From an uncultured Pseudomonadales bacterium (lineage in GTDB: Bacteria; Pseudomonadota; Gammaproteobacteria; Pseudomonadales; Azotimanducaceae): a stretch of DNA of 64,000 bases. Shown here piece by piece: positions 6,226 to 59,273 of this stretch (the stretch's first letter is position 1; each line of letters starts with the position of its first letter). The stretch lies in assembly GCA_958296165.1 (NCBI GenBank), contig OY282447.1:1178001-1242000 (forward strand). Reading direction: 5' to 3'. The notes beneath the pieces were generated by a model. That model did no database searches and was not told the DNA's origin. It worked only from the letters and a program-made list of their open reading frames with translations. The position numbers and the translations under genes are program-made.

Positions 6226-7566
6226 CTAGCCGCCGTTGGCCTGCCGCGCCACGTCAGCCAGCACCGCGGCGCGGTCGCGCACCTCGTCGGCATGCTCGCC
6301 CTCCACCATGATGCGCACGACCGGCTCCGTTCCGCTCGGGCGGATGACGACGCGGCCATGACCCCGTAAGGCATTCTCTACATCTCTTGCCGCATCCACA
6401 ACGGTTCCACTGCCCGCCACCGCTGCCGGGTCGTGCGTTTCAACGTTCACTGTCGCCTGCGGCAGCTTGTGTATGCCGTGGTATAGCTCGCGCAAGGACT
6501 TGCCCATTTCCACCATCGCGGCAAGCACTTGCAGGGCAGAGACAATGCCGTCGCCGGTGGTAGTGAGGGCCAGGCAGACCAGATGGCCGGACGTCTCGCC
6601 GCCGAGCTGCCAGCCGTTCGCGCGCAGTCTTTCGAGCACATAGCGGTCGCCTACGGCGGCGCGCTCGAAAGGGATGCCGCAGGTCTCAAGCGCTCGCTCT
6701 AGCCCAAGGTTGCTCATCACCGTGCCGACCACGCCGCCCTGCAAACGACCGCGCAGAAAGCCGGATTTGGCAATGATGTACAGCAGATCGTCGCCATCAA
6801 CGACTTGGCCGTCGGCATCCACCATCACCACCCGGTCGCCATCGCCATCGAAGGAAATGCCGACATCAGCGCCGACTTCCACCACTTTCGCCGCCGCGGC
6901 CTGCGGATGCGTGGAGCCGCAACCGCTGTTGATGTTGGTGCCATCCGGCTCGACGCCGATGGCGGTCACGTCCGCGCCGAGTTCCTCGAATACCTTGGGC
7001 GCTACCGCATAGGTGGCGCCGTGGGCGCAGTCGACGACGATCTTGAGGCCGCGCAAATGCAGCCCGCGTTCAACGGTGCTCTTGCAGAACTCGATGTAGC
7101 GGCCGCGCGCATCATCGATCCGAAACGCCCGCCCCAAGGCTTGCGAGCCGACCGAGATCATGGGCTGCTCCAGCTGTTGTTCGATGGCGGCCTCGCGTTC
7201 GTCCGGCAGCTTGTTGCCTTCGGCGTCGAAGATCTTGATGCCGTTGTCGTCGAAGGGATTGTGCGAAGCGCTGATGACGATGCCGGCGTCGGCGCCCAAC
7301 GTACGGGTCAGGTAGGCGACGGCCGGCGTGGGGATGGGACTCAGCAGGTTGACGTTGACGCCGGCCGAAACCAGCCCGGCTTCCAGCACGGACTCGATCA
7401 TATAGCCGGAGATGCGCGTGTCTTTTCCGATCAGCACCAGCGGCGAACCATCGGAGGCGAGCACCTTGCCGATGGCCCAGCCTAGCCGCAGACAGAAATC
7501 CGGAGTGATGGGGCCAGTGCCTACCTGTCCGCGAATGCCGTCGGTGCCGAAAAAGTTCCTCTTCAT
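6226..7566 (-). CDS. glmM: phosphoglucosamine mutase
   Basis: GlmM converts glucosamine-6-phosphate to glucosamine-1-phosphate for peptidoglycan and LPS precursors. The 446-aa protein starts [16 protein letters not shown]. It carries the phosphoserine loop [14 protein letters not shown], the metal loop SFDGDGDR and the C-terminal phosphate-binding [16 protein letters not shown]. The ATG at 7566 is preceded by a purine-rich leader. The open frame extends 17 codons further upstream, but that extension is the translated leader. folP, which normally lies between ftsH and glmM, is absent. Confidence 0.96.
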
Positions 7567-42653: not shown

Positions 42654-43322
42654 TTAACTCTCCTCAACCGGAATTTCTCGAACGCGCCATGCCGCTCTAT
42701 TGCGCAAGCGCGAGTAGCTCAATCTGGCTCGGAAGCGCTCGCCTCTTGTCGGTGAGTTGCGCCCCGCCAACCAGATCGTATCGGTAGCGCTTGGGTTGTA
42801 GCGCTGCTGCAGGCGTCCGTTCGGAATGCACGCAACGACGATGCGCTCCAATCCATGCGAGCCGCCCTGTTCTGCGTAAACATACTTGGCAATCACGGTC
42901 ACGACCTGAAACTCCTTTCCGCCACGCGAAATCACTTGATCTAGTAACCCAGGTTCGTCAACCGCCGCGCCGCCTCTCGTTCTCATCCTCACGCGCATTG
43001 ATGTTTGGGACATTTGGATCGTAGCCGTCTGGTCTCCATCGGACTTTTCCGCTTTCGCATCAAGCATTGGTGCAACGGGTTGCGCGACCGGAAGAAACAC
43101 ATAGATGGCCTTCTTGATGTCCACCTTCCCGTAAAGCCGATCGCTAAGGCTCGGTAATCCCATTGTCTCAACCGCTTCTCTCGTCACATCCTCGGCGATG
43201 TCTTGCGGCAAGTCGGTCTCCTCACGGAAAATCGTCTCTGCCTGTTCTGCGTAGTCCATCAGCGCTTGCACAACCATCTCCAAAGCAGTTCGTTCCACAT
43301 GCTCCAACTCATCGAGCGTCAT
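42654..43322 (-). CDS. SfiI-family type II restriction endonuclease
   Basis: The 222-aa protein aligns by eye with SfiI along its length. The start [19 protein letters not shown] compares with SfiI LDELESVEKQTLRTIVQAL. The catalytic-type segment MLDAKAEK (residues 87-94) compares with LVDAKAS. Near the end, [19 protein letters not shown] then SPTRGER compares with ARLKQRYNPDPDT and SPARGEV. SfiI is a tetrameric enzyme cutting GGCCNNNNNGGCC; whether this protein shares that site cannot be read from the sequence. It is somewhat shorter than SfiI (269 aa). Its start overlaps the end of the methyltransferase gene by 14 bp. Confidence 0.82.
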
Positions 43323-44328
43323 CGGTCCGCCTGTGCGCCATGTGTACGTACTCGGTGTCAATGTCGATGCCAAGCCAATGCCGGCCTAGCAGTTTCGCTA
43401 CCTTGGTTGTGGTTCCCGTGCCGACGAACGGATCCAGCACCACGCCGCCGGGCGGCGAGAACAGGCGGATCACGCGGCCTGCGAGTTCCTCGGGGAACTC
43501 GGCTTCGTGACGATCGTTGCGGCTTACCGACCTGATTCTCCACACGCCGCGGGAACCCCACTCCGCCCATTCGCTTGGCGTCAGCCGATGGCGGTCGTAC
43601 TCGGTGATGCCGGGGCGCCAGAAAACGTAGATGTGCTCGAACTCGTCCACCGCCCGGTAAGAATTGGAATGCCATCGGCTGTTCGCCCAGCAAGGGTCTT
43701 TGTGCCAGATGCGCTGGTCGTAGAGATAGAGCCCGGCCTCTTCCGCCCACTCGGCGACCAGGCAACCGGTCAACAGCACTTTGGTGGACGTGGATTGCTT
43801 GCCGCCGCGCACGTTGTTGTGCTCCAAACGCCGCTGAATGGTCTGCTCGCTGCACCCTAGCAGGGCGGCTAGCTCTTGGCGCTTTGCTTGCGGATGCGCT
43901 TGCCGCGCGGCAAGAACCTGCTCGCGCGTTACGGAATTGGTCTTGCGGCGCACATTGTTGGCTTGGAACTTGGGTATGGAAGCGTCCGGAAAGCACAGAA
44001 TGTCGCCGATGTTGATGGCAAGGAAGCCGCCGGGCTTGATGACCCCGCTATGGCAGTGGATCACGCTGCGCAGGAGCTCCTGCCAATCGTCGAAAGACAG
44101 GTGACGTTCGTAGGACTTGCCGACGTAGTACGGCGGCGACCAGAAGCTAAGATCGACGCTCGCCTTGGGCAGTTGCGCCAACCGCGTTCTGGCATCGCCC
44201 GCGAGAATGCGATCGAAGGCGTAGCCGTGGCCGTTGACCACCGGCACATTCGCCCCGCCGCAGTCTCCGCAGATAGCAACCGCGTGCCGATCAATCGTCA
44301 GGCATTGTTGAACAGTACACTTCGTCAT
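43309..44328 (-). CDS. DNA (cytosine-N4 or adenine) methyltransferase with zinc-ribbon-like start and internal HTH
   Basis: This 339-aa methyltransferase is the likely protecting partner of the SfiI-like nuclease. Motif IV is SPPYY (64-68), favouring N4-cytosine. The SAM motif I, DPFVGTGTT (299-307), comes after it, so the order is the beta class. Cys4, Cys9, Cys20 and Cys23 at the N-terminus form a possible zinc site. Residues about 130-178 (REQVLAARQAHPQAKRQELA, ALLGCSEQTIQRRLEHNNV) read as a helix-turn-helix inserted between the motifs. Such an HTH could target the enzyme or let it regulate its own operon; no separate controller gene is present. It is 5 nt from the metallopeptidase gene. 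Confidence 0.88.
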   Translation of the reverse strand: MTKCTVQQCLTIDRHAVAICGDCGGANVPVVNGHGYAFDRILAGDARTRLAQLPKASVDLSFWSPPYYVGKSYERHLSFDDWQELLRSVIHCHSGVIKPGGFLAINIGDILCFPDASIPKFQANNVRRKTNSVTREQVLAARQAHPQAKRQELAALLGCSEQTIQRRLEHNNVRGGKQSTSTKVLLTGCLVAEWAEEAGLYLYDQRIWHKDPCWANSRWHSNSYRAVDEFEHIYVFWRPGITEYDRHRLTPSEWAEWGSRGVWRIRSVSRNDRHEAEFPEELAGRVIRLFSPPGGVVLDPFVGTGTTTKVAKLLGRHWLGIDIDTEYVHMAHRRTDDAR

Positions 44329-44333
44329 TTTGA

Positions 44334-45035
44334 CTATTTCCGTTGGATCAAATCTAGCTCCACTAGGCGCAAGGCCATGGCCGTTGCCGTTACGCCATAC
44401 TCATCCTTAATGGAACGAAAGTGTCCTTCTCCGATATTTGTGCAGATACTCACGGCCCTTGCACGCTCTAAATCGGCGTCTTTGCCCGGCCTCAAGAGCC
44501 GTTCATGGTCCGTTTTGTCCAACCACCAAGCCAAGTTCTCGTCCACCCTAAGCGGTATGCTTCCAAATCTGTTCTTAAGGTCTTTAGCTATCCATTTTCG
44601 CGGCATCAAGTAGGCCGCCGCGAATTCATCTGCCTCCCTTTCGCGCTTTGGTCTTTTAGTTAGCAGATTTATAGGTCTATCTCGATGTTCTATCGCGTAT
44701 CCATGCAGTAACAAGTGGCCTAGTTCGTGTGCAGCTGTGAATAGTCTTTCGTCCGGCGGTGAACTTTCGGACGTGGTGACTGTCTTGCCTAGGCGGTCTA
44801 GCCGCCCTGCGATCACGCTGCGTTTGATTCCCGCCGACCCACCTACAACGCGCATTTCCATGTCGAGGTCAGGTCGTTCCTCGTAAGTGAAGCCCATCAT
44901 CTCGAACGCATATTTCGGATGCAGGTACTGCCTCGCATTCTTAGCGTCCGGAAAGCGCGACCTTACATACTCTAGAACTTGCTTGCGCAATGTCGTCGCT
45001 TTACGATGAATCGTCTTCTTGTCCATGCTCGTCAC
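44334..45035 (-). CDS. ImmA/IrrE-family metallopeptidase
   Basis: The 233-aa protein has the M78 zinc motif AAHELGHLLLHG (HELGH 103-107) and the third-ligand region EREADEFAAAYLMP. Relatives cleave repressors or antitoxins of mobile elements (ImmA of ICEBs1) or control DNA-damage responses (IrrE). No XRE-type repressor partner is beside it. The genes next to it are the restriction-modification pair, suggesting a shared accessory island. The GTG at 45035 and ATG at 45026 are both possible starts. Codon use is noticeably more AT-rich than nrdA, consistent with acquisition. Confidence 0.85.
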   Translation of the reverse strand: MTSMDKKTIHRKATTLRKQVLEYVRSRFPDAKNARQYLHPKYAFEMMGFTYEERPDLDMEMRVVGGSAGIKRSVIAGRLDRLGKTVTTSESSPPDERLFTAAHELGHLLLHGYAIEHRDRPINLLTKRPKREREADEFAAAYLMPRKWIAKDLKNRFGSIPLRVDENLAWWLDKTDHERLLRPGKDADLERARAVSICTNIGEGHFRSIKDEYGVTATAMALRLVELDLIQRK

Positions 45036-45047
45036 CGTCCGCCAGTC

Positions 45048-48000
45048 TTACTGACACGCTTCGCAGTCGGGATCGTCGATGGCGCAGGCCGCTGGCAGGT
45101 CGGCGGCAGCGGTGAATGTCGGCTGGTCGTTCGTCGCCGTGTGGCCCGGCTCTTGGGCTGCCATTGATGTGCCCGACGATTGGCCGTCGGCCGCTACGGC
45201 GTTCAGCGAGCCAGTCTTCTCCAGTGTCGATTTCTCGGTGCTGGTCGCGCTCGTTGCTCTTAGGTAATAGGTGGTCTTCAAGCCGCGCAGCCAGGCCATG
45301 CGGTAAGTGATGTCCAGCTTCTTGCCGGAGGCGCCAGCAATGTAGAGGTTCAAGGACTGCGCTTGGTCGATCCACTTCTGCCGGCGGGCGGCGGCATCCA
45401 CCAGATAGCGGGGCTCGACCTCGAAGGCTGTCGCGTACAGGCTCTTCACTTCCGGCGGGGCGCGATCGATCTGCGCCAAGCTGCCGTCGTAGTACTTGAG
45501 ATCGTTGGCCATCACTTTGTCCCACAGCCCAAGATGCTTCAGATCGCGCACCATGTACGGGTTCACCACCGTGAACTCCCCCGACAGATTCGATTTCACG
45601 TACAGGTTCTGATACGTCGGCTCGATGGATTGCGAAACGCCAACGATGTTGGCGATGGTCGCCGTCGGCGCGATGGCCATGACGTTGGAGTTGCGCATGC
45701 CGCGCTCGCGCACCTTGCGGCGCAGCTTGCCCCAGTTCAGGGAAGTGGAAAGGTCGACGTCGCAATAGTCCCGGCCGCGCTGATCGGCGAGGCGCTTGAG
45801 GGAATCGATGGGCAATGTGCCGCGGCTCCACAATGAACCCTCGAAGGTGGCGTAGCTGCCGCGTTCTTCAGCCAGCCGCGACGACGCATCGATGGCGTAG
45901 TAGGACAGCGCTTCCATGGATTGATCGGCGAAATTGACGGCCGCTTCGGAAGCGTAGGGAATGCGCAGCTTGTAGAGCGCGTCCTGAAAACCCATGATGC
46001 CGAGGCCCACCGGCCGGTGCCGCATGTTGGAGGTGCGCGCTTGCGGTGCCGCGTAGTAGTTGATGTCGATCACGTTGTCGAGCATCCGAACCGCCGTGCG
46101 CACCGTTCTCTTGAGCTTCTTGGTATCGAGCGCCGGCCGGCCTTTGGCGTTCGGGACGACATGCGCGGCGAGATTCACAGAGCCTAAGTTGCACACCGCG
46201 ATCTCTTCCTTCGAGGTGTTCAACGTGATCTCGGTACACAGGTTCGACGAATGCACCACGCCGACATGCTGCTGCGGCGAGCGGACGTTGCAGGCGTCCT
46301 TGAAAGTGATCCACGGATGCCCCGTCTCGAACAGCATGGAGAGCATCTTGCGCCACAGTTCGTTGGCCTTGACGCGCTTGAACAGCGTCAGTTCGCCGCT
46401 GCGGGTCTGCCGTTCGTACTCCAAGTAGCAGGCCTCGAAATCCGCGCCCCAGCAGTCGTGCAGATCGGGCACCTCGTTGGGGGAGAACAGCGTCCACTCG
46501 CCATCCTCGAAAACGCGCTTCATGAACAAATCCGGCACCCAGTTGGCGGTGTTCATGTCGTGGGTGCGGCGGCGGTCGTCGCCGGTGTTCTTGCGCAGTT
46601 CCAAGAACTCCTCGATGTCCAAGTGCCACGTTTCCAAGTAGGAACACACGGCGCCTTTTCGTTTGCCGCCGTTGTGCGCCAGAGCGCTGGTGGTCATGTA
46701 GGATTCGTCGCCTTCGACTTTCAGGTCCACGACGAACGGCACTGGTGGCAGATTCTTCGTCGAGCGGACGCGACTGAATACACAGTTTTGGAAGACGAAC
46801 CAGTTGTGCTTGGCGATAGATCGGCAGTTCAGCTTGCTGGCGAGCGCCGGCACGGCTGGCACGCGGATATCCCACGCCTTCACAACACCATTGAAGTACG
46901 CTTTGGAGCCGTCGTCGCGAATGCCCTCATGCTGCTGCTCACGCTCGCGGTATTGTCCCGCCGTGGGCACGCCCAAACGGAGCAGTTGATAGCGAACACC
47001 CTCGGCCAACGCCTCGGACGTGCTTGTGAAATAAATCTCCTTACCGCGAGCGACGCCCCCGTCAGTTTCCAGCAGGCCTTGCAGCAAGGACAACGTCTGC
47101 GCCTTTGGCAGATGACTGAAACGGCGGTGGATTCGTTTCTTGCCGTCCGCGTCGTAGAGATCGTCGCGGGAAAGGCCAAGCGAGTTGCCACCGCCGCTCA
47201 GATATTGTCCAGTAGTGCCGTCGCGCACGAGGCCGACCCCCGTCGACCAGTGGACTTGGCGATAGCGGTCGCCGCGGCCAGTCGTCCAATAGTGGATGCC
47301 CTTGCTCGCTAGGTAGTCGGCGACGAAGCGCAAGTGGGCATCGCGCATCGGGTTGCCGCTCACGCCCCATTGCAGGCCCCCCTTGGAACAGTGTCCGTCG
47401 CCCAAAAGAATGCCGTAGAACCGGGCGTCGTCCTCGTTGAACCCGTGTACGGATACGACTTCCCGCGGAATGGCTTGCGCCACGTAGTCACCTTTTTTCA
47501 GCTGGCCGGCTTCCGTCCACCGAGGTTCCACCTTCCCCTTTGTCAGCCAAGCCATCGTGCGGCCAGTCGACTGCTCCATGGGCACGCCTTGAATGGACCA
47601 GATCGGATGCCCAGCCGTTATGCGTAGTGGTTGTACGGCGTGCTTCACACGCAACTCCACCATCGGATCCGTTTGGTTGTATGTCATGGTCTTCAGCACT
47701 TGGCGGTATTCGCCGCGCTGGCCCAGCACCAAGTCGTTGGTGGTTACGCCGCTGATAGCTTTCACGCCGTCGGCCGTATGCACCCGCGTGTCTGGTGCAA
47801 AGCACTGATTCACAGCTACCGCCGTGTCGTTCACCACCTTCAGGAACGGCACCACGCCTTGGGACTTGCCGTTGGTGCCCTTGATGTAGGCACCGAGCGC
47901 CCGCACCGGCGTCCAGTCGTTGCCGAGGCCGCCGGCCCACTTGGAGAGCAGGGCGTTGTCGCGGATGGCGCTGTAGATGCCGTCGAGGTCGTCGGAGACG

Positions 48001-49163
48001 GTGGTTAGGAAGCAGGAGGACAGCTGCGAACGCATCGTGCCGGCGTTGAACAGGGTGGGCGTCGAGCTCATGTAGTCGAAAGACGACAACAGGTTGTAGA
48101 ACTCGATGGCGCGTTGCTCCGGCTGATCTTCCTCAATGGCAAGCCCCATCGCCACGCGCATGAAGAACACCTGTGGCAACTCGAAGCGCGTGTCGCCGCT
48201 GTGGATGAAGTAGCGGTCGTAGAGCGTCTGCAGGCCCAGATAGGTGAACATCTCGTCGCGCTCGGGCTTCAGCGCCTGGCCCAAGCGTTGAATGTCGAAG
48301 CGTTTGAGCTCCGGCGCCAGCAGTTCCAGCGCAACGCCACGGTCGATGAAGGCGGCCAGCGCCGGCGCATACAGAGCCGCCATTTCGTCTTGCGTCGCCT
48401 GCGTTGTGCCGCCGAGGGTGGCGCCGCCGGCGATGCCGAGGAAAGTAAGCGCTTCCGATCGCAGTTGGTCCAGCAGCAGGCGCGCCGATGCGTAGGTGTA
48501 GTTGGGCTCCTCTTCCACCAGGGCGCGCGCCGTCATCAGCAAGCTGGTCTTTAAGTCCTTCTCGGTAATGCCGTCGTACATGTTGGCCAGCGCTTCGTTG
48601 ATGACGCGTTCCGGTTCCACGTCGTTGAGGCCACGACATGCCTGCACCACCACCGTGTGCATGCGCTCAGCATCCAAGCGTTCTCGGCTACCGTCGGCGG
48701 CCACTACGTGAATAGTGCTCGGCGCGGTTGCCGGAGCAGGAGCGGCAGCTTTGGCGGCGCGGATGCGGGCGTGTTCCTCGCGGTAGAGCACGTAGTCGCG
48801 CGCCACCTTGTGCTCGCCAGAGCGCATCAGGGCCAGTTCCACCTGGTCCTGAATGTCCTCGATATGAATGGTGCCGCCGGAGGGCATGCGGCGCCCGAAG
48901 GTTCCGGTGACTTGCTGCGTCAAGCCGGTGACGAGCTCACGGATGCGCGTTGAAGCTGCCGCGGTGCCGCCTTCGACGGCTAGGAACGCCTTGGTGAGCG
49001 CGATCTGGATCTTGTCGTCGTCGTAGGTTACGACGGTGCCGTTGCGCTTGATGACGCGCAACTGCCCCGGTGCGGTGGCGACAATCGATGGCGACGGCGG
49101 CGCTTCTGCTGCCAAAGCTGGCGGCGCTCCGTTTAGCGAAGTGCTTGGCGAGTTGGTTTGCAT
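45048..49163 (-). CDS. nrdA: ribonucleoside-diphosphate reductase subunit alpha, intein-containing precursor
   Basis: NrdA reduces ribonucleoside diphosphates to deoxy forms. The 1371-aa frame contains two N-terminal ATP-cone regions (RVIKRNGTVVTYDDDKIQIA and a second from IHVVAADGSRERLDAERM). The catalytic barrel has SSCFLTTVSDDLDGI, NLCTEITL, GLGIMGFQDALY and the C-terminal redox Cys pair in DPDCEACQ. An intein interrupts the barrel at VAVNQ/GGKRKGAV (residues 454-831), leaving a 993-aa extein of normal size. Without splicing, the active-site barrel would be split, so function depends on the intein. Confidence 0.96.
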   Translation of the reverse strand: MQTNSPSTSLNGAPPALAAEAPPSPSIVATAPGQLRVIKRNGTVVTYDDDKIQIALTKAFLAVEGGTAAASTRIRELVTGLTQQVTGTFGRRMPSGGTIHIEDIQDQVELALMRSGEHKVARDYVLYREEHARIRAAKAAAPAPATAPSTIHVVAADGSRERLDAERMHTVVVQACRGLNDVEPERVINEALANMYDGITEKDLKTSLLMTARALVEEEPNYTYASARLLLDQLRSEALTFLGIAGGATLGGTTQATQDEMAALYAPALAAFIDRGVALELLAPELKRFDIQRLGQALKPERDEMFTYLGLQTLYDRYFIHSGDTRFELPQVFFMRVAMGLAIEEDQPEQRAIEFYNLLSSFDYMSSTPTLFNAGTMRSQLSSCFLTTVSDDLDGIYSAIRDNALLSKWAGGLGNDWTPVRALGAYIKGTNGKSQGVVPFLKVVNDTAVAVNQCFAPDTRVHTADGVKAISGVTTNDLVLGQRGEYRQVLKTMTYNQTDPMVELRVKHAVQPLRITAGHPIWSIQGVPMEQSTGRTMAWLTKGKVEPRWTEAGQLKKGDYVAQAIPREVVSVHGFNEDDARFYGILLGDGHCSKGGLQWGVSGNPMRDAHLRFVADYLASKGIHYWTTGRGDRYRQVHWSTGVGLVRDGTTGQYLSGGGNSLGLSRDDLYDADGKKRIHRRFSHLPKAQTLSLLQGLLETDGGVARGKEIYFTSTSEALAEGVRYQLLRLGVPTAGQYREREQQHEGIRDDGSKAYFNGVVKAWDIRVPAVPALASKLNCRSIAKHNWFVFQNCVFSRVRSTKNLPPVPFVVDLKVEGDESYMTTSALAHNGGKRKGAVCSYLETWHLDIEEFLELRKNTGDDRRRTHDMNTANWVPDLFMKRVFEDGEWTLFSPNEVPDLHDCWGADFEACYLEYERQTRSGELTLFKRVKANELWRKMLSMLFETGHPWITFKDACNVRSPQQHVGVVHSSNLCTEITLNTSKEEIAVCNLGSVNLAAHVVPNAKGRPALDTKKLKRTVRTAVRMLDNVIDINYYAAPQARTSNMRHRPVGLGIMGFQDALYKLRIPYASEAAVNFADQSMEALSYYAIDASSRLAEERGSYATFEGSLWSRGTLPIDSLKRLADQRGRDYCDVDLSTSLNWGKLRRKVRERGMRNSNVMAIAPTATIANIVGVSQSIEPTYQNLYVKSNLSGEFTVVNPYMVRDLKHLGLWDKVMANDLKYYDGSLAQIDRAPPEVKSLYATAFEVEPRYLVDAAARRQKWIDQAQSLNLYIAGASGKKLDITYRMAWLRGLKTTYYLRATSATSTEKSTLEKTGSLNAVAADGQSSGTSMAAQEPGHTATNDQPTFTAAADLPAACAIDDPDCEACQ
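46671..47804 (-). other. intein with LAGLIDADG homing endonuclease inside nrdA
   Basis: The 378-residue insertion begins CFAPDTRVHTADG (Cys1, block A). It has a block B His in RITAGHPIWS, two LAGLIDADG-type motifs (FYGILLGDG and LLQGLLETDG), block F VPFVVDLKVEGDES, and ends ALAHN (block G His-Asn). The extein joins as VNQ-GGKRKGA, which is exactly the uninterrupted NrdA sequence of Pseudomonas. The residue after Asn is therefore Gly, not the Cys/Ser/Thr that the standard splicing mechanism needs. That makes canonical splicing doubtful. Confidence 0.9.
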
Positions 49164-49634
49164 GATCTAGCTATTCTCCCCTCATACTGAGTGTATGTCC
49201 AGCACCATATCTAGCGTAGGCAGCAAACGGTAAGTTGTGGCAAGTTGTAAGGAACACCGACGCGCTCAGTTGATATTCTTGAAGGCCCGATGTTGGCTGT
49301 AATCCGCCTCGACTACTCCTTGCTTTCTGTTCTCAACCCCTAGATATAGGTATCCGACAACCCTTAACGACCACATATACATACTTTCTGGGCACTTTGC
49401 AACAACCTTTTCCGCCGTCGTTAGGACCTCCCTGAACCCCTGTGGATGAATCTGTACTCTGCACGTTAGCAACCTGTTAGTCCGCCAACGCCCCCTAGAT
49501 GTAGTGTTTGCAGTTCCGTCCGTAGAAAGTGGATTGCTTGTGTTTAACCTGTTGATAGCTATGAAAAGCGTTGGCTTGAAGCCCCGGGTTCCCGGCGCTA
49601 ACGTGCATCGAGAACGTTTCTCAAGGAGCCGCCC
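49164..49634. promoter_or_regulatory. 471-bp divergent gap between nrdA and glpK
   Basis: I see no credible gene here; it is more AT-rich than the flanks. It must hold the nrdA promoter (leftward) and glpK promoter (rightward). A near-match to the DnaA box, TGTGGATGA, lies at 49441-49449. Two partly similar sequences, CCCCTAGATATAGG near 49336 and CCCCTAGATGTAGTGT near 49491, and GCACCATATCTAGCGT at 49202-49217, are weak NrdR-box look-alikes with the wrong spacing. Confidence 0.4.
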
Positions 49635-59246: not shown

Positions 59247-59273
59247 TCAGTGGGCGGCACTATATTGAGTGTC

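Follow-up and report, generated by a model that had tools for sequence, protein, structure and literature searches.

Class 1 inteins have been described with Cys, Ser, or Thr at the +1 position, and for domains without a +1 nucleophile cleavage is said to exceed splicing (PMC4031507, PMC3359363). For the A-type BIL domains, a route was proposed in which an N-terminal thioester is formed, the C-terminal Asn cyclizes, and the freed amine attacks the thioester (PMC4031507). In the BILs covered by that source cleavage predominates, and one BIL with Tyr at +1 did not splice until this residue was replaced by Cys, an argument against easy splicing without a nucleophile (PMC4031507). Inteins are also reported from reductases, e.g., MCA2543 of Methylococcus capsulatus (PMC517821). 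Here, an intein followed by Gly in the class I ribonucleotide reductase large subunit, NrdA, is compared with these systems.

The interrupted nrdA gene

The window, i.e., the whole analyzed stretch of 64,000 nucleotides, carries an ORF of 1371 aa (45048..49163) encoding an NrdA precursor with two ATP-cone stretches. The genes and gene parts of the window described here are all on the minus strand (-). The ORF was assigned to NrdA by profile search (PF02867, E 1.2e-188; NF005544, 1680 bits). By alignment to empty NrdA genes, the precursor was divided into an N-extein of residues 1-453 (47805..49163), ending in AVNQ, and a C-extein (45048..46670, stop codon included), which starts with GGKRKGAV of loop 2 and holds most of the catalytic barrel. 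The intein, 378 aa from Cys1 to Asn378 (46671..47804, precursor residues 454-831), was delimited by alignment, profiles, and predicted structure, and is placed exactly between Q453 and G832. The spliced NrdA is expected to have 993 aa.

The preliminary description of this DNA had located the insertion exactly at VNQ/GGKRKGA. This matches the NrdA of P. aeruginosa (5im3), which is uninterrupted at Q442-G443 in the alignment, and the empty genes, in which Gly-Gly follows VNQ in 71/71 uninterrupted NrdA genes of the 80 loci fetched by similarity. It had also read the +1 residue as a Gly inherited from native NrdA, and this reading holds: the codon is GGC (46668..46670), encoding a residue without side-chain nucleophile, proposed below to supply its amine after Asn cyclization. 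The Gly is not the product of a misplaced junction, because moving both boundaries by one residue fails to restore VNQGG. A reading as an intron at the RNA level was weighed as far as the open frame and the Hint anatomy reach.

The intein blocks claimed before, i.e., Cys1, the TAGH block B, LAGLIDADG motifs, and terminal His-Asn, were all found. Cys1 (codon 47802..47804) is the predicted thioester-forming residue. Block B is T63-A-G-H66 (47607..47618), block F has Asp360, and the C-terminal cyclizing pair is His377-Asn378 (46671..46676, with the Asn378 codon at 46671-46673). The homing endonuclease part, recognized by motifs and profile, covers about intein residues 115-290 (46935..47462, approximate limits). 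Both acidic LAGLIDADG motifs are retained, i.e., LLGDGH and LLETDGG, so that an endonuclease is predicted from the sequence. LAGLIDADG_3 (PF14528) matched the window intein alone at E 3.8e-09 and was found in 10/10 family members scanned.

The window intein was below the cut-off for two splicing profiles, i.e., PF14890 Intein_splicing (17.6 bits) and Hint_2 (24.7 bits). When the joined Hint parts of 11 of the 20 members were scanned, Hint_2 was matched in 11/11 (best 1e-07), Intein_splicing in 11/11 (best 4.3e-06), and PT-HINT in 10/11 (best 3.5e-06). Against the sequences of solved structures, the joined Hint profile found the gp41-1 intein (6qaz, 7.5e-06) and then a BIL (2lwy, E 3.6e-05). 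The AlphaFold2 model built with 20 sequences had a mean pLDDT of 86.6 and pTM of 0.85. Its top Foldseek matches were whole-length inteins, i.e., TliVMA (7qsu, E 1.4e-18, TM by query 0.61) and PI-SceI (structures 1ef0/1vde; 1ef0 at E 1.7e-18, TM by query 0.52).

The nrdB gene for the class I small subunit, the NrdA partner, was identified by profile match (PF00268, 41311..42651). The nrdA and nrdB genes are separated by three ORFs of the same orientation (42654-45035), i.e., an M78/ImmA-like protein (PF06114), an N6/N4 DNA methylase (PF01555), and an SfiI-type restriction endonuclease (PF11487, E 9e-46). By these domains, the three ORFs appear to be a type II restriction-modification module within the nrdAB cluster. 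At locus L001, which carries an intein at the same site, a frame directly downstream of nrdA has an end that by eye resembles that of the PF01555 methylase. Matches to an NrdR-box-like pattern were found at 49202-49217, 49492-49507, and 59257-59272 with 3 mismatches each (0.02 expected); two of the three are just upstream of nrdA.

The same-site family and its +1 residue

Twenty inteins were collected at this NrdA site, from the window, nine genome loci, eight further genomes, and two viral contigs. The nine loci (L001-L008 and L024) were found among 80, which are the best 80 of at least 586 relatives, so that 9/80 is not a frequency. Their sources are gamma- and betaproteobacterial records, a Chlamydiae MAG, a Verrucomicrobia MAG, and Nocardiopsis halophila DSM 44494 (L006), whose same-site intein is in a host with a second PF02867 gene. 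In 369 genomes of the host's class, the intein was found in the own genome and eight more; 11 of the 369 had matched, and G164 and G140 were left out as weak partial matches. In a phylum sample of 398 genomes, the intein was found in the own genome only. The viral contigs had it in 2/3 loci (L095 and L096), and the third, L097, with 24% identity, was left out of the family. The 'phages' collection gave no match and the 'plasmids' collection one partial match of 30.6% identity. The family spans several bacterial phyla plus viral contigs. Neither Gly+1 splicing in NrdA nor a same-site Gly+1 intein family was found described in the literature searched; the family may be listed in intein databases.

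In the alignment, Cys1, Thr63, His66, Asp360, His377, and Asn378 are invariant in all 20 members. The comparison with other inteins at the site, suggested in the preliminary description, gave Gly-Gly at +1/+2 in 20/20, with no Cys, Ser, or Thr, and the -1 Gln is likewise invariant. Gly+1 had been presented there as a peculiarity of a single gene; with Gly in every intein at the site, it is the rule. Replacement of the missing nucleophile by another Cys of the intein was rejected, as no conserved Cys column other than Cys1 is present in the 20-member alignment. Ser or Thr is found at positions 344 and 368 in every member, and Thr371 in 19/20, the exception being Val in L005.

As a control, the 369 class genomes were searched with PF14890, whose last position is the terminal Asn, so that the profile is blind to the +1 residue. 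Of 30 fetched intein loci, which are a part of the matches, 27 had a match reaching the profile end. Cys, Ser, or Thr was read at +1 in 27/27 of these ends (C 13, T 8, S 6), with 10/27 sharing the C-extein motif CGEQ and so being incompletely independent. The own genome had no PF14890 match at the control threshold, so the control covers conventional inteins only. Three NrdA proteins carry a second intein at another site, and there the +1 residue is conventional, i.e., KN/T in L007, GQ/C in L096, and HN/C in G305/L104. The second intein of L096 has a terminal Gln in place of Asn.

In classification, the family shows the class 1 residues Cys1, T63/H66, and H377-N378 in 20/20 each and departs from class 1 at the +1 residue, which is Gly in 20/20 and not Cys, Ser, or Thr. 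It is not of class 3, since Cys1 is present and Asp360, taken as position F:4, is in all 20 members in place of Cys. The His-Asn end without a +1 nucleophile is that of an A-type BIL; the site, being loop 2 of NrdA, is not the variable region of a non-conserved protein expected for one. A-type BIL domains are not known to carry a homing endonuclease. The features of a homing intein were also observed, i.e., acidic LAGLIDADG motifs (in the window; lost in L001), sporadic distribution, and a tree conflict with the host gene.

The insertion site is within loop 2, the specificity loop of NrdA. Aligned to the human enzyme (5d1y, tagged chain), the -1 Gln falls on the last residue of 'VDQ', at chain position 308. 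It is taken as Q288; the matches to untagged human and yeast chains, from the same search, start at 288-289. Loop 2 (residues 285-295) is described as relaying the signal of the effector site to the catalytic site, with Q288 and R293 touching the substrate (PMC3483043). A permanent break in this loop would be expected to impair specificity control. Although a single base change would give a Ser or Cys codon at +1, such a change is presumably not tolerated, because the mature enzyme has Gly-Gly in all the empty genes, and the intein would have had to adapt.

Host dependence, selection, and mobility

The own genome is one contig of 5,069,597 bases with 98.08% completeness. Both of its PF02867 matches are the two exteins of the interrupted nrdA. 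The profile search of this genome gave no match for NrdD and no RTPR gene above cut-off, the sole RTPR match being weak and inside the nrdA frame. Among the 18 intein-bearing bacterial genomes, the interrupted NrdA is the only PF02867 gene in seven (G000, G074, G151, G305, G747, G754, and G755), and in the last six no NrdD and no RTPR above cut-off was found either. In G056 and G097, it is accompanied only by a short extra PF02867 fragment match. The NrdA C-terminus match of G056 is in a stretch containing two TGA stops, and the additional C-terminal fragment of G097 matches 89 profile positions about 6 kb downstream. A further PF02867 match is present in the other nine (G090, G136, G358, and G748-G753), being partial in G752. 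NrdD was found in 1/18, i.e., G748, and RTPR above cut-off in none of the nine of these genomes searched for it. Several of the 18 hosts are draft genomes or MAGs, in which absence is weaker, including G747-G755 because completeness figures are not given for them. Where it is the sole class I/II large subunit of a host, the NrdA precursor must therefore be processed.

The intein moves horizontally between genes. The exteins of L089 and L092 are sisters (support 1.0), and their inteins group with L088 and with the viral L096. Between viral L095 and the window, the exteins are 43% identical and the inteins 55%. From this conflict of intein and extein trees, it follows that the element is mobile and that a newly invaded gene must be able to tolerate it.

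L001 has the extein nearest to that of the window among the longer exteins compared, and its same-site intein has 361 aa (6303-7385). Both acidic positions of its endonuclease are replaced (LLGAGH and LLEAGG) and its splicing residues are intact, so by its motifs it would be an endonuclease-dead stage of the homing cycle. Between window and L001, identity is 79% in the Hint part (residues 1-75 and 340-378) and 56% in the endonuclease part (115-289); in the other 18 comparisons with the window, the Hint-minus-endonuclease difference was -8 to +13 points. The dN/dS of this pair (Nei-Gojobori; limits slightly wider than in the identity comparison, dS about 0.8-1.1 and moderately saturated) was lowest in the C-extein (0.14), similar in the Hint part (0.22) and the N-extein (0.23), and higher in the endonuclease (0.42 or 0.48, from two alignments). 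The splicing domain of L001 is still under purifying selection. Thus, in one pair, its conservation after the loss of homing is about as strict as that of the enzyme. Of five other pairs, one was saturated and the other four, with dN/dS of 0.09-0.26 for the endonuclease and 0.10-0.23 for Hint, were without the L001 pattern.

Proposed splicing route and comparison with known systems

The residues for thioester formation and Asn cyclization are all present, and only the nucleophile for transesterification is absent. We propose, with a probability of roughly 0.66, that the intein excises itself and rejoins Q453 to G832 by an amine-attack route free of a nucleophilic side chain; splicing by any route is somewhat more probable than that. 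The element, a mobile LAGLIDADG intein with the anatomy of class 1, would be functional and would splice without a +1 side-chain nucleophile. Cys1, aided by Thr63 and His66 of block B and Asp360 of block F, would accept the N-extein as a thioester. Asn378, aided by His377, would then cyclize and release the alpha-amine of Gly+1. The unhindered Gly-Gly amine, held near the thioester by the intein and the folded NrdA barrel, would attack the thioester directly, giving a native peptide bond. We infer the ligation, the order of these steps, and the amine attack. Sortase likewise resolves a Cys thioester with oligo-Gly amines. Several points weigh against this route. By analogy, a sole reductase would require a good yield from chemistry by which BILs mostly cleave, and ligation may not be strictly required, as there is a precedent for an active NrdA in two pieces. 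The Asn side chain of an Asn-Gly pair deamidates readily, which would spoil the cyclization unless the active site prevents it. The conserved S/T344, S/T368, and T371 are possible alternative nucleophiles, and half of the hosts (9/18) have another PF02867 match.

The main rival to splicing is cleavage alone, which we consider unlikely. Both ends would be cut, by hydrolysis of the Cys1 thioester and by Asn cyclization, and the NrdA halves would reassemble into an active enzyme. Double cleavage would need the same conserved residues; the split NrdA of phage Aeh1 is reported as fully functional (PMC2988022), and BIL domains without a +1 nucleophile are reported to cleave mostly (PMC7664689). However, loop 2 would be severed next to the presumed Q288, the substrate selector, hosts with a sole reductase would rely on a nicked enzyme, and the -1 Gln and the Gly-Gly are invariant in 20/20 interrupted and 71/71 empty genes. 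Splicing through Ser/Thr368, Thr371, or Ser/Thr344, by a branched intermediate from which the N-extein is passed to the Gly amine, is more doubtful still. The conservation of these residues (20/20 for 344 and 368, 19/20 for 371) would suit it, and class 3 inteins are cited as showing that an internal residue can substitute (PMC4031507, PMC7664689). However, Cys1 is kept in 20/20, so the class 3 logic of replacing Cys1 is inapplicable, position 4 of block F is Asp and not Cys in 20/20, and T371 gives way to Val in L005.

A further reading is an NrdA that is inactive, unspliced or dead, with another reductase supplying the cell; the preliminary description had offered it for a dead NrdA. The hosts with another PF02867 match, and G748 with NrdD, would allow it, but no other reductase was found among PF02867, NrdD, and RTPR in the window's genome, with about 2% of it estimated missing, and in six others no further PF02867 gene and no NrdD. 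All 20 frames are open, and purifying selection acts on both exteins (dN/dS 0.23 and 0.14, window versus L001). This reading is very improbable. Least probable is that the +1 codon was misread in sequencing or assembly: a single base separates GGC from Ser or Cys codons, but 20/20 records agree, native NrdA also has Gly, and the Gly+1 of the relatives refutes it. Among the three outcomes offered before, unusual splicing is therefore best supported, the dead enzyme is contradicted for this host, and cleavage alone keeps the low standing given above.

In this host and six others, in which no second enzyme of the kind was found, an essential enzyme has to be processed at Gly+1. If the exteins are ligated, protein splicing can do without transesterification, the BIL mechanism gains a native example under high demand, and protein engineering acquires a splicing element with nothing but native Gly-Gly left behind. 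If there is only cleavage, a class I reductase would be working although its specificity loop is broken, likewise a surprising outcome.

Among known systems, TliVMA (7qsu) and PI-SceI share the whole-length Hint plus LAGLIDADG fold with the NrdA intein. The class 1 LAGLIDADG inteins share Cys1, the T..H pair, the block-F Asp, and His-Asn, whereas Cys, Ser, or Thr follows in them and Gly follows in 20/20 of the NrdA-site family. The second inteins of L007, L096, and G305/L104 are in the same host protein, but at other sites and with conventional +1 residues. The intein of Aquifex aeolicus NrdB (R2) is likewise in a class I reductase, near functional residues, and with a LAGLIDADG endonuclease; unlike that of NrdA, it interrupts the small subunit and is followed by Cys, with Leu229-Cys230 as the reported spliced bond (PMC8772380). 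In phage Aeh1, NrdA is likewise interrupted by a mobile endonuclease, the mobE insertion, in a region critical to function, but mobE is described as a free-standing gene for the endonuclease, and NrdA is left as two polypeptides (PMC2988022). The A-type BIL (2lwy) has the same His-Asn end without a +1 nucleophile, and the amine-attack route proposed for BILs would fit the NrdA intein. BILs are described in variable regions of non-conserved proteins and as mostly cleaving (PMC7765530, PMC4031507), whereas the NrdA intein has an endonuclease and occupies the invariant core of an essential enzyme. By this analogy, the amine-attack chemistry of BILs is proposed here for an endonuclease-bearing intein within an essential enzyme.
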